This document shows positions 16,900 through 21,561 of a stretch of DNA of 21,561 nucleotides, in pieces. A program made the translations under genes and the position numbers. The stretch is from Candidatus Micrarchaeum sp. GTDB taxonomy: Archaea > SpSt-1190 > DYHY01. The notes under the pieces are model-generated. The model worked only from the letters and a program-made list of their open reading frames with translations, had not been told where the DNA came from and did not search any database. Every line of letters begins with the position of its first letter. The stretch's first letter is position 1. Location of the stretch: contig DYHY01000013.1 of assembly GCA_020723935.1 (NCBI GenBank), positions 1 to 21,561 on the forward strand, in the 5' to 3' direction.

Positions 16900-17949
16900 C
16901 TAGAATCCGAGGTAGAGCAGGAGGTATTTTGCCAGCATCGCCCAGTTGCGCGGCTTGCTGAAGATCTTCACGACGGCTTTCGTGTGGAAATCCATGTCCC
17001 CGTGGCTCTTGAGTTCGTCCAGGTTCTCCCGGGAAAATCTCATGAGCCTGTCGTAGTCCGCCTCCGAGAGCCGCGAGAGGACTCGGCGCACCGCGACGGA
17101 GGTCGCAAGCTCGCGGCCGATCTTCCTCCTCCAGAGCCCGTCGTATTCGGCGGGATTCTCGACGCTCTTTGCCGCGATCTCCGCGCACATCATCCCCGTT
17201 ATTATCCCGCCACCGGTAGTCGCCTTCACCTGGCCGGCCGCGTCGCCGACGAGGATCTTGTTCCCAAAGACGCACCTCCGGAACGGGCCTCCGGTGACGA
17301 CGTGGCTCCCCTGGCGCTCCTTGATGACAAACCCCTTGAGGCGCTTCTTCATGAAAGCCTCCAGGAGGTCCTTGGGGAGCTTGGAGGTGGCGACGCCGAT
17401 CTTCGCCAGCTGCCTGTCCTCGGGGACTATCCAAGCGAAGAAGTCGCTCCTGAGGAAATGGAGCTCGACGAAATCGGTGTCCAGGGTCTCGGAGGTCCTG
17501 ACGAGGTACTGGACCGCCGGGAGGGTCCCAAGCTTGAGGCCTAGCTTCGGCAAGGTCCTGCTCGTGGCCCCGTCCGCGACTATCACCCTCTTGGACCGCG
17601 GGAAGGAGAACGCGTCGGCGCCCCGGTTGAACTCTATCCTCGCGCCCGCGGAAACCGCGAGGTCCGCGAGGTGCTGGTCGAAGCCCGCGCGGTCTATCAC
17701 GGTCGCCTCCGTCCTCCCGCGCTCGAGCTCGAAGGACTCGTTCCTCGAGAAGAAGCGTGCCCCCTTCACCTTGTTGAACTTCAGGGAATCGGGAACGTGC
17801 AGGACCTCGTCAATCCTCCCGGAGACCAGGCCCGTGCAGTGCTCCGGCCGGCCGATGCGGGAATGCTCCTCATAGACGACGCACGAGTCGCCCAGGTGCT
17901 TCGCCGCCCAAAGGCCTGCGGAGCCGCCGCCTATGACGTGTATGACCAT
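16900..17949 (-). CDS. Geranylgeranyl reductase-family flavoprotein
   Basis: The 349-residue protein has the p-hydroxybenzoate-hydroxylase-like FAD fold. It carries the dinucleotide motif GGGSAGLWAA at residues 7-16, the family phrase GRPEHCTGLVSGR with C38, and the second FAD motif VGDAAGQVKATTGGGI with D236. In archaea these enzymes saturate the geranylgeranyl chains of membrane ether lipids, and many genomes carry several copies with different jobs, so the exact substrate is uncertain. It is slightly shorter than typical full reductases of about 390-450 residues. ATG 17949 follows AT-rich TATA candidates. It is divergent from the giant surface-protein gene. The stop is TAG. Confidence 0.85.
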   Translation of the reverse strand: MVIHVIGGGSAGLWAAKHLGDSCVVYEEHSRIGRPEHCTGLVSGRIDEVLHVPDSLKFNKVKGARFFSRNESFELERGRTEATVIDRAGFDQHLADLAVSAGARIEFNRGADAFSFPRSKRVIVADGATSRTLPKLGLKLGTLPAVQYLVRTSETLDTDFVELHFLRSDFFAWIVPEDRQLAKIGVATSKLPKDLLEAFMKKRLKGFVIKERQGSHVVTGGPFRRCVFGNKILVGDAAGQVKATTGGGIITGMMCAEIAAKSVENPAEYDGLWRRKIGRELATSVAVRRVLSRLSEADYDRLMRFSRENLDELKSHGDMDFHTKAVVKIFSKPRNWAMLAKYLLLYLGF

Positions 17950-18019: not shown

Positions 18020-18029
18020 TTATAAAATA
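18020..18029 (+). promoter_or_regulatory. TATA box for the giant surface protein
   Basis: TTATAAAATA is centred about 32 bases before ATG 18057, implying a leader of about seven bases. Confidence 0.65.
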
Positions 18030-18056: not shown

Positions 18057-21000
18057 ATGGCTAATCACACAAAGCTCGGAACGGTTCTAGCGCTTGCGTC
18101 GGTTATGTTCGTTTTCGTCCTCGCGATCCTCCTTTCTCCTGGTTTTTCCGCCAACTGCGGCTGCTCGGACTGGCGCGGCAACGGCGGATGCGGCGCGGGC
18201 TGCTGGTTCAGCGGGATAAGCTGCGGCCCGGGCCAGATACAGATGTGCCGCCACGCGGGGAGCCCCAGCTGCGAGAACCTCGTCCCGGGGCATATCTGCT
18301 ACAACCTGTGCAGCTATCTCCTGAACTCCGGGGGCCAGTGCGCCTGCGGCAACTACGTCTGGCCCAGGCAGACCACGACCACGGTGCCTCACACCACGAC
18401 CACGGTGCCTCACACCACGACCACGGTGCCTCACACCACGACGACCAATCCCACGACGATTCCTACGACCGTCTACACGACCACCACGACCGCTCCGCCC
18501 TGCGGGGGCGCCGACATGGAGCGCGACCCGAACAACTGCGGGTATTGCGGGCACATCTGTCCCCCCTGCTACCGCGGGTGCTCCAACGGCATGTGCCAGC
18601 CCAGCGGCAACTGCCCGACCACGACGACGATAGTCTGCAACGGCGTAGACATGAACAGCGACCCGAACAACTGCGGATACTGCGGCCACATCTGCCCGAC
18701 CTGCTACAAGTCCTGCGTCTACGGCATGTGCCAGAACGACGGGACGTGCCCGACCGCGACGACGATCGCCCCGTGCGCCGGCGCGGACCTCAACAGCGAC
18801 AACGGCAACTGCGGATACTGCGGCCACATCTGCCCGGAGGGCTTCTACTGCTCGGGCGGCTCGTGCCAGAAGAAGTTCACGACCCCCGGCTGCAGCGAGG
18901 ACATCGTCTTCTTCGACAACTTCACGAGCGGGGCGGACCCGGGCGGATGGAAGTATTCCGTCGCCGACGGGATCGTCCTCTTCTCCGAGCAGGGCGAATA
19001 TCTCTACATCTCTCCCTATCCCGGGGCCTACACCTACCCCCTTGTCGGGAGGAACGACGCATTCGATAGGGCCACGAACAACTATTTCGTCGAGGCGAGG
19101 ATCCAGTACCCGCGCCTGACCAAATACACGGCCGGCTTCTACGTGGGCTCCTCCGTCTTCAACCCGTCCCTTCGCCTCAACCTCTGGGAGGCGCAGGATC
19201 CGGGGCTCTCCGACGTCCTGATGTTCAACGAGACGAACGGCTCCGCGCGCGCCTTCGCCGTCAGGCCCTTCGGGGACCTTGGCTACTACAACTCCACGAT
19301 CGACAACAACTGGCACCTGGCGCGCCTCGAGGTGCTCTTGAGCGGCTACACGCTCTTCCTGGACGGAAGAAGGGTCGCTTCCGGGTTCGCCGAGCCCCTT
19401 CCGCCAAAGGCGCTCTGGTTCGGCAACAAGCACGTCGCGGGAGCATCCCCCCTGGGGAGCGCGATGCGCGTTGACTGGGTGAAGGTGGGGATACTGTGCC
19501 CGACCACGCCCACGTGCGCAGCGGACACCGCAAACGACGCAAACAACTGCGGATACTGTGGCCACATCTGCCCGGAGGGCTTCTTCTGCTCCGGCGGCAA
19601 CTGCCAGAAGACCTTCGGCTCGACGACAAGCGAGCCGGCGTGCGGGGGAGCCAACCTCAACACCGATCCCCTCAACTGCGGATACTGCGGCCACATCTGC
19701 CCGGAGGGCTTCTACTGCTCCGGCGGCTCGTGCCAGAAGTCCTTTGCGTCAACGACGACGACAGTGAACAACACCAACTGCCCGGGAGTGGACCTCGTCA
19801 CCGACCCTAGGAACTGTGGATACTGCAGGCACGCGTGCCTGGCCGACGAATACTGCGCGGCGGGCGTGTGCAACCAGGTCGCCAAGCCCCAGGAGCTGTG
19901 CTGCGACAACGCGGACAACGACAACAACAGGTTCATTGACGCCGAGGACCTGGGATGCAGGAGGGACTTCTGGTTCGTGAAGGGCCTGAACGATGCCTGC
20001 TACGGCTCGCCCCACCTCTACACCAACAACGTGCAGACAGAGGGCGGCTATCTGACGTGCCCGACCGACACCAACCTCATGCGGCTGTACCTCAAGTCGG
20101 CGACGGAGTCCGGCGACAGCCTCGCGGCGTACGACGGGGCAAACAAGCTCATCTACGTCGTCCCGACGAACTTCAACGGCGGACAGTACGGCTGGACGGA
20201 CTATTTCCCCACGAACAAACTCAAGCTCTCATTCAGGACGGACCCCATCTCCAGCGGCTGGGGCTTTGACGTGGGGAAGGTCGACTGCTTCAACGGGACG
20301 GGCACCTCGCTCCCCAACTACAGCAACTTCACCTGCGACCCCGCGTACTGCGCCGCGAAGACCGGCTACTATTGCAACGGGCCGGTCCGGGAGAGGCGCT
20401 CCTACTTCTGCTCGGAGAGCCTCTGCAAGTTCACGGTGACGCAGTCAAGCCAGGCCAGCGGCTCGTGCGGGGTCCTAGCGATGACGATGAGCACGGACAA
20501 GTACGAGTACGCGCCCGGAGAGACCGTGCGCATATCCGGCGATGTCTACAACGGGTCAAGGCTCTCGCCCGACACGTTCATCGACGTGCAGACCTCGTTC
20601 GGCCGCTGGTCAACCTACTCGGACTTCGCCGGCAGGTATTCGCTCTCCATCCATTCCCCGCCCGCGGGGCTCTACGAGATATCGGCGCGGGCCTTCAACA
20701 GGCCCGCCGGCGACGTCATAGCCCACGCCGAAAGGTGGTTCGTGCGCCAGAAGAACGACCTGAAGGTCGACGCGCAGGTGAGCCCCCTGACGGTGAAGCT
20801 GGGGGAGGCGTCCACGGTCTCGGGCAAGGTCTGGGACAGGGGCTTCCCCGTGAGCAGCGCGAGCGTCGAGGTGCGCGCCCCCTGGAGCACCTACCACACC
20901 GCGACCAACCAGTTCGGCGAGTTCTCCTACGACATATCGAGCGCCTGGATCGGGAACAACAACGTCACGGTCTTCGCGCAGAAGGACGGCGTGTCCGGCA

Positions 21001-21561
21001 CGAGGAACGTAGTGTTCTCGGTGAACCCGGCCGGCCTGGGCGCCGAGGCGTTCACGCTCTCGGCCCCGTCGGTCGTCAAGCCCGGGAAGATCTTCTACGC
21101 CTCCGGCTCATGGTACGTGGACGGCATCGGGATGAACGAGCAGTTCGTCATGACCTTCGCGGGGGGCTCCAAGGGCGTGAAGCCCGTCGGGGGCGTCTAC
21201 AACGCAAGCCTCCTCGCCCCGGTGGCGGAAGCCTGCTACTCGGTCGCGGCGAGGAACAAGACCGCGCAGGTCTGCGTGAGGAAGCACGACAAGATAACGA
21301 TAACCTTCCAGCTCGAGGGGACCTCGACGGTGGCTATTATGGGCGACTACGAGGACGGGAGCCCTGTCACGGGGGGCCTGGCCTACTGGATAGATTCGGG
21401 CTCCAACACCTACGTGAGGATGGAGAACGGGCGCACCGCGGTCCCGGTGTCCTTCGCGCCGGGGCGGCATTCCGCCTGGGCGTCCCTCAACGACGGCTTC
21501 CTCTACGCGACGGCGACAAGGTCCTTCGACGTTTCAGGAGCCGCGCCCACGACCACTGTCC
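18057..21561 (+). CDS. Giant secreted modular Cys/Thr-rich surface protein, 3' end outside window
   Basis: ATG 18057 opens a frame with no stop for 1168 codons to the window edge. Residues 1-32 are a signal peptide (LGTVLALASVMFVFVLAILL, then SPGFSA). Residues 33-104 are a Cys-rich head. A Thr-rich linker with three TTTTVPH units follows at 106-126. Six Cys modules of about 33 residues start near residues 149, 194, 240, 487, 529 and 575, with core NCGYCGHICPEGFYCSGGSC; the sixth is degenerate. A probable LamG/concanavalin-like domain (about 275-480) sits between modules three and four. A CCDNADNDNNRFIDAEDLGC motif lies near 615. Beta-sandwich-like domains follow near 806-900, 902-995 and 999-1160, and the frame ends entering another Thr linker. 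The modules resemble Stig1-like NCGxCG repeats of bacterial surface proteins. Likely exported and disulfide-rich, with an adhesion or glycan-binding role; function unknown. Confidence 0.9.
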   Translation, partial: MANHTKLGTVLALASVMFVFVLAILLSPGFSANCGCSDWRGNGGCGAGCWFSGISCGPGQIQMCRHAGSPSCENLVPGHICYNLCSYLLNSGGQCACGNYVWPRQTTTTVPHTTTTVPHTTTTVPHTTTTNPTTIPTTVYTTTTTAPPCGGADMERDPNNCGYCGHICPPCYRGCSNGMCQPSGNCPTTTTIVCNGVDMNSDPNNCGYCGHICPTCYKSCVYGMCQNDGTCPTATTIAPCAGADLNSDNGNCGYCGHICPEGFYCSGGSCQKKFTTPGCSEDIVFFDNFTSGADPGGWKYSVADGIVLFSEQGEYLYISPYPGAYTYPLVGRNDAFDRATNNYFVEARIQYPRLTKYTAGFYVGSSVFNPSLRLNLWEAQDPGLSDVLMFNETNGSARAFAVRPFGDLGYYNSTIDNNWHLARLEVLLSGYTLFLDGRRVASGFAEPLPPKALWFGNKHVAGASPLGSAMRVDWVKVGILCPTTPTCAADTANDANNCGYCGHICPEGFFCSGGNCQKTFGSTTSEPACGGANLNTDPLNCGYCGHICPEGFYCSGGSCQKSFASTTTTVNNTNCPGVDLVTDPRNCGYCRHACLADEYCAAGVCNQVAKPQELCCDNADNDNNRFIDAEDLGCRRDFWFVKGLNDACYGSPHLYTNNVQTEGGYLTCPTDTNLMRLYLKSATESGDSLAAYDGANKLIYVVPTNFNGGQYGWTDYFPTNKLKLSFRTDPISSGWGFDVGKVDCFNGTGTSLPNYSNFTCDPAYCAAKTGYYCNGPVRERRSYFCSESLCKFTVTQSSQASGSCGVLAMTMSTDKYEYAPGETVRISGDVYNGSRLSPDTFIDVQTSFGRWSTYSDFAGRYSLSIHSPPAGLYEISARAFNRPAGDVIAHAERWFVRQKNDLKVDAQVSPLTVKLGEASTVSGKVWDRGFPVSSASVEVRAPWSTYHTATNQFGEFSYDISSAWIGNNNVTVFAQKDGVSGTRNVVFSVNPAGLGAEAFTLSAPSVVKPGKIFYASGSWYVDGIGMNEQFVMTFAGGSKGVKPVGGVYNASLLAPVAEACYSVAARNKTAQVCVRKHDKITITFQLEGTSTVAIMGDYEDGSPVTGGLAYWIDSGSNTYVRMENGRTAVPVSFAPGRHSAWASLNDGFLYATATRSFDVSGAAPTTTV
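18372..18434 (+). repeat. Three perfect 21-bp tandem repeats coding TTTTVPH
   Basis: The units at 18372-18392, 18393-18413 and 18414-18434 are identical at the DNA level. They are in frame with the surface protein and code the heptad TTTTVPH. The lack of any third-position change suggests recent duplication. Confidence 0.95.
18501..19878 (+). repeat. Six in-frame Cys modules (NCGYCGHIC type) within the surface protein
   Basis: Modules begin at about 18501, 18636, 18774, 19515, 19641 and 19779, each about 100 bases. Modules three to five share long near-identical DNA around AACTGCGGATACTG and GGCCACATCTGCCCGGAGG. Modules one and two have a different second half (CPxCYxxC). Module six reads NCGYCRHAC and has lost some positions. 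Confidence 0.9.

Follow-up and report, generated by a model that had tools for sequence, protein, structure and literature searches.

The gene that begins at position 18057 of the window (the whole stretch of DNA analysed, 21,561 nucleotides from Candidatus Micrarchaeum sp.) encodes a giant exported protein in which six homologous cysteine modules, a nested domain and a series of predicted β-type domains are joined with threonine-rich linkers, and a membrane-anchoring helix lies downstream of the assembly gap at which the window ends. The reading we favour, at a little better than even confidence, is that of a membrane-anchored, disulfide-stiffened and probably glycosylated stalk for contact or adhesion. 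The arrangement is new; its individual ingredients all belong to kinds known from elsewhere.

Reading frame and domain layout

The frame (18057–21560, 1168 amino acids) has no stop before the window ends and stays open at its 3′ side. A first-pass annotation of the sequence had proposed this open frame, a signal peptide, Thr-rich spacers, six homologous Cys modules and a further domain between the third and fourth of them, and all of these were recovered in the following layout.

18020–18029, + strand: TATA-box-like TTATAAAATA, a candidate archaeal promoter about 30 nt upstream of the ATG, judged by resemblance to the consensus only
18057–18152, + strand: signal peptide or N-terminal hydrophobic segment (aa 1–32), assigned by hydropathy; ...SPGFSA precedes the first Cys
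18153–18368, + strand: N-terminal Cys-rich domain (aa 33–104), 11 Cys
18369–18494, + strand: Thr/Pro linker (aa 105–146) with TTTTVPH repeats
18495–18617, + strand: Cys module 1, 8 Cys; the NF041328 match spans aa 148–271
18630–18755, + strand: Cys module 2, 8 Cys
18768–18878, + strand: Cys module 3, 6 Cys, 76% amino acid identity with module 5
18891–19502, + strand: nested domain (aa 279–482), 204 aa, Cys-poor, ending ...AMRVDWVKVGILC
19509–19619, + strand: Cys module 4, 6 Cys
19635–19748, + strand: Cys module 5, 6 Cys, the module modelled with AlphaFold2 (pLDDT 91.8)
19773–19886, + strand: Cys module 6, 6 Cys, diverged (NCGYCRHAC)
19893–19964, + strand: acidic Cys motif LCCDNADNDNNRFIDAEDLGC, a candidate Ca-binding or acidic double-disulfide repeat
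19968–20327, + strand: CUB-like β domain (aa 638–757)
20475–21536, + strand: Ig/carboxypeptidase-regulatory-like β repeats (aa 807–1160), weak PF13715/PF02369

The hydropathy (KD) of residues 7–27 reached 2.70, against an internal maximum of 1.12 in the part of the protein within the window, and 25 of the 42 residues of the first linker are threonine. The N-terminal Cys-rich domain had no Pfam match and showed no more than marginal similarity (E 0.056) to a Cys-rich part of a second giant protein encoded by this genome.

The setting of the gene is archaeal in type. Its neighbours include an AdoMet synthetase (PF01941), HerA and deoxyhypusine synthase, and a search for a sigma-70-type site found none. 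GC3 ranged from 0.82 to 0.95 along the gene and was 0.90 overall, the same value as for the AdoMet synthetase gene of the window; the long antisense ORFs seen here are attributed to this high GC3. The gene is flanked on one side by an FAD oxidoreductase resembling geranylgeranyl reductases (16900–17949, − strand; family assigned by eye) and on the other by a cis-prenyltransferase (L008 4404–5099, − strand; PF01255, 221 bits). The two flanking enzymes could act in dolichol or lipid synthesis and hence in glycosylation. Further downstream (L008 7888–11514) lie an ABC transporter, with ATPase and ABC-2 permease, and then an exported-type CARDB-domain protein.

The assembly gap and the C-terminal anchor

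A second Thr linker starts at 21537, and the frame is cut by a run of ten Ns at positions 21562–21571 of the contig (C9), so that the window end at 21561 is an assembly boundary and not a stop. The first-pass annotation had asked for an extension beyond this point and for a C-terminal anchor. Indeed, the sequence beyond the gap (contig 21572–22288) ran through VPAETTIVPAPATTTISSGGDTTTTTVSPP..., a Thr/Pro linker, about 190 aa of β-type sequence and a C-terminal transmembrane helix AVKWFALVIAGVAALLLFF (KD 2.34) to a stop at 22288, with no early stop. Because Thr/Pro linker sequence stands on both flanks, the gap lies inside a low-complexity linker. Counting the ten Ns literally would put the flanks in different frames; we infer continuity from the open frames on either side and the matching linker type, and the simplest reading of the two halves is a single gene of about 1,406 aa, gap not included. 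Read in this way, the N-terminal signal and the single C-terminal helix give the protein the layout of a type-I membrane-anchored surface protein.

Six cysteine modules, probably disulfide-stapled

The six modules are built around NCGYC[GR]H[IA]C, with NCGYC at residues 160, 205, 251, 497, 540 and 586. The pattern NC[GA]xCx3C occurred six times in the protein; 5,000 shuffles gave 0.003 on average and never more than 1. Throughout the 1.14-Mb genome the NCGYCGHIC coding pattern occurred five times, always in this gene, and the reversed control gave 0. The cysteines are invariant across the alignment of the six modules, and an alignment of 22 modules that included those of relatives kept mainly the cysteines and a few glycines. 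Modules 3, 4 and 5 are the most alike (66–76% amino acid and 77–81% nucleotide identity), placing the nested domain between recently duplicated copies.

AlphaFold2 modelled the module confidently from the 22-sequence alignment, with a C-terminal β hairpin, in keeping with the repeated mini-domain that had been proposed. Foldseek, VIA-align and a viral library returned no significant match to this model, the weak ones being mostly other small disulfide domains, and a PDB sequence search with modules 1–3 returned nothing significant.

The even Cys counts and the confident model fit modules that are probably stapled by disulfides. Against this reading, no VKOR homologue was found in the genome, which is 91% complete. 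The modules might instead bind Zn or Fe and make the protein a surface metal scavenger or an electron conduit. The CxxC and His spacing is superficially like that of metal sites, and of the two PDB matches to the module profile, both very weak, the second (E 6.5) was a ferredoxin-type Cys cluster. However, relatives do not conserve the His and Tyr of CGYCGH, and the cysteines come in even numbers, two features more in keeping with disulfides than with metal; the protein is also exported. We therefore regard a metal-binding role as highly improbable. Heme c binding in particular is ruled out, since CGYCGH is not a CXXCH motif.

Relatives of the modules in bacteria and archaea

The closest described family was NF041328 (MXAN_6577-like cysteine-rich proteins, NCBIfam), which matched best over residues 148–271 (76.4 bits, E 2.1e-21), below its whole-protein curated cut-off of 100 bits. 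As in that family, the protein carries tandem six-Cys DPxNCGxCGxxC modules, whose Cys columns align with those of the bacterial modules in the order DP.NCG.CG..C..G..C..G.C. Unlike in the MXAN_6577-like proteins, the modules here are dispersed along an extended archaeal mosaic that also contains other domains and a transmembrane anchor. Plant STIG1 proteins are small secreted proteins, and the Stig1 family (PF04885) matched the modules weakly in three stretches (17.3 bits, E 0.0068; gathering cut-off 24.1); at E 0.001 the genome was absent from the Stig1 matches. Since both scores fall below the curated cut-offs, the modules appear related to NF041328 and Stig1, yet formal members of neither, and the proposed Stig1-type relation of the exported, repeated modules stands in this looser sense. 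A Stig1 match at another locus (L010) was dismissed as a false positive, that protein having ferredoxin-type Cys clusters.

A scan of 84,980 genomes for NCGYC[GR]H relatives found six loci, from Kofleriaceae, Myxococcales, a deltaproteobacterium, a proteobacterium of the deer omasum, a Methanotrichaceae archaeon and a Micrarchaeota archaeon. A tblastn search of residues 149–611 against phages and plasmids found none. One 398-kb contig of a viral collection (IMGVR_UViG_3300017991_000048) carries a frame of 795 aa in which many Cys repeats accompany a single NCGYCGH module; the start of this frame is lipoprotein-like and bacterial in appearance, and the viral label of the contig may be questionable.

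Within archaea, the NF041328 profile matched 13 of 394 genomes. Five of the 13 were discounted, three at inspected loci without an NCGxC motif and two as same-genus copies of one of these, leaving about eight of the 394, the present genome included, with an NCGxC-type motif in a long frame. Among these long frames, L026 and L030 have Thr/Pro linkers and L025 has LamG-type sequence. The last, a frame of 1,837 aa in genome G266, is comparable in bringing together LamG-type sequence (by eye) with NCGSCG modules and NGIDDDCDGLID-type motifs within a single protein; it differs in its domain order and in having no CGYCGH signature, and is not an ortholog. The first-pass annotation had called such a mosaic unusual in an archaeon. 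The modules are indeed rare, but the statement was too strong, long mosaics with LamG or Thr linkers occurring sporadically in archaeal genomes. Judged from these sequences, the Cys modules are sporadic, not unique, in archaea. Literature searches for archaeal Stig1 modules turned up no relevant report.

A search of 196 other archaeal genomes, the same-family genome G001 (84% complete) among them, recovered no relative of the protein as a whole, so that no argument from conservation can be made for its function.

The nested domain and the C-terminal half

The nested domain has two cysteines, one at each end. It had been described as LamG-like, and its closing stretch (...LFLDGRRVASG...AMRVDWVKVGIL) resembles a ConA-like jelly roll by eye only. 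No support for this identity emerged. Laminin_G_3 (PF13385) gave no match to the domain at E 10 in a search of the genome that did recover a 2,560-aa frame on contig C1 (E 1e-24), hhalign of the domain against LamG scored no better than shuffles, and searches of Pfam, NCBIfam and PHROG named no convincing family. A single-sequence AlphaFold2 model (pLDDT 33.5) was uninformative as to the fold and only suggested β strands, and a PDB sequence search returned nothing significant. Viral contigs, plasmids and the 394 archaeal genomes held no usable homologue, the single match, in genome G349, having internal stops.

Downstream of module 6, the acidic CCDNADNDNNRFIDAEDLGC motif upstream of the CUB-like region matched NF033662 below the cut-off (E 0.0057). 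The CUB-like domain matched PF23062 over residues 33–123 of the segment (E 2.1e-4, 21.6 bits; gathering cut-off 32). The same pair of acidic motif and CUB-like domain occurs in an archaeal frame of 1,800 aa (L048), whose CUB-like counterpart is 23% identical. The repeats at residues 807–1160 are similar to those of three giant archaeal surface proteins (L047, L049 and L050). PDB sequence searches with the CUB-like and Ig regions found nothing significant.

Other giant proteins of the genome

Contig C1 (42000–53500, − strand) holds the 2,560-aa frame, in which two Laminin_G_3 domains score well above the cut-off. A region of contig C27 (41000–53000) holds two further large frames on the + strand. 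The one from 1068 of that region is exported in type, 1,713 aa long with 117 Cys, and includes a PPVTTTTAP linker as well as a GH25 lysozyme domain (130 bits); it too runs into an N-gap, and its product is a possible antibacterial enzyme. Near it, the frame from 7766 (847 aa) combines Cys-rich regions with TTTTT linkers and has a transmembrane helix at its C-terminus, the same building style as the window protein. Because this genome thus has additional giant proteins of the Cys-rich or LamG kind, including one with GH25, the window protein probably belongs to a lineage-specific surface repertoire.

A putative contact stalk

Under the favoured reading, the signal peptide would export the protein and the C-terminal helix would hold it in the membrane (type I). 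The Thr/Pro-rich linkers, probably glycosylated, would space the rigid parts, and each module would be a mini-domain with three disulfides, or four in modules 1 and 2. Modules and β-sandwich-type domains together would make up a protease-resistant stalk on which the nested 204-aa domain and the CUB-like domain are displayed to a partner; the likeliest purpose would be attachment to another cell or to a matrix. This is argued for by the resemblance of the CUB-like and Ig-like segments to parts of giant archaeal surface proteins, and by the other giant Cys-rich, Thr-linked or LamG-bearing proteins of the genome. Counting against it, no ligand can be assigned to any domain, and the nested domain has no family match. 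A sugar-binding or host-contact role may be suggested.

The same features could belong to a structural component of the cell envelope, S-layer-like or part of a sheath, in which the modules and β repeats would yield an extended protective fibre and the nested domain would bind nothing but adjacent copies of the protein. The transmembrane anchor, the many β domains, the Thr linkers and the lack of an identifiable ligand domain would suit such a component, as would the several similar giant proteins of the genome; the modules, however, occur in no other gene of the genome, and S-layer proteins are usually conserved in relatives, whereas G001, only 84% complete, gave no match. We consider an envelope role somewhat unlikely.

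Distinctly improbable is a part in an antibacterial or predatory surface arsenal, with the protein docking bacteria or binding their glycans. Peptidoglycan hydrolases from archaea that kill bacteria are known (PMC12352652), and the 117-Cys frame with its TTTT linker does carry GH25. That gene and the present one are on different contigs, however, and neither a catalytic nor a peptidoglycan-binding domain was found in the protein.

The proposed contact stalk would have a works-like analogue, in layout and contact role, in TraA of Myxococcus xanthus, which acts in cell contact with a signal sequence, a PA14 lectin-like head, a Cys-repeat stalk and a C-terminal tag (PMC3325183). The TIGR04201 repeats, PA14 head and MYXO-CTERM tag of TraA were not found here. 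Among archaea, LamG/ConA proteins of Undinarchaeota, likewise β-domain proteins, have been proposed as adhesins (PMC7414124); in contrast to these, LamG identity could not be established for the nested domain. A more specific version, in which the nested domain would be a novel fold for binding carbohydrate or protein, inserted between two recently duplicated Stig1-type modules, and the whole an archaeal analogue of TraA attaching to a specific microbial partner, is speculative and in our judgement quite unlikely.

Should the protein prove to be a contact stalk, it would be a concrete candidate for how an archaeon with a small genome touches its partner, and its design of disulfide mini-domains, glycosylated linkers and binding heads would be one common to archaea and myxobacteria. 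If it is not, it still documents a family of Cys modules thinly spread over the archaea.
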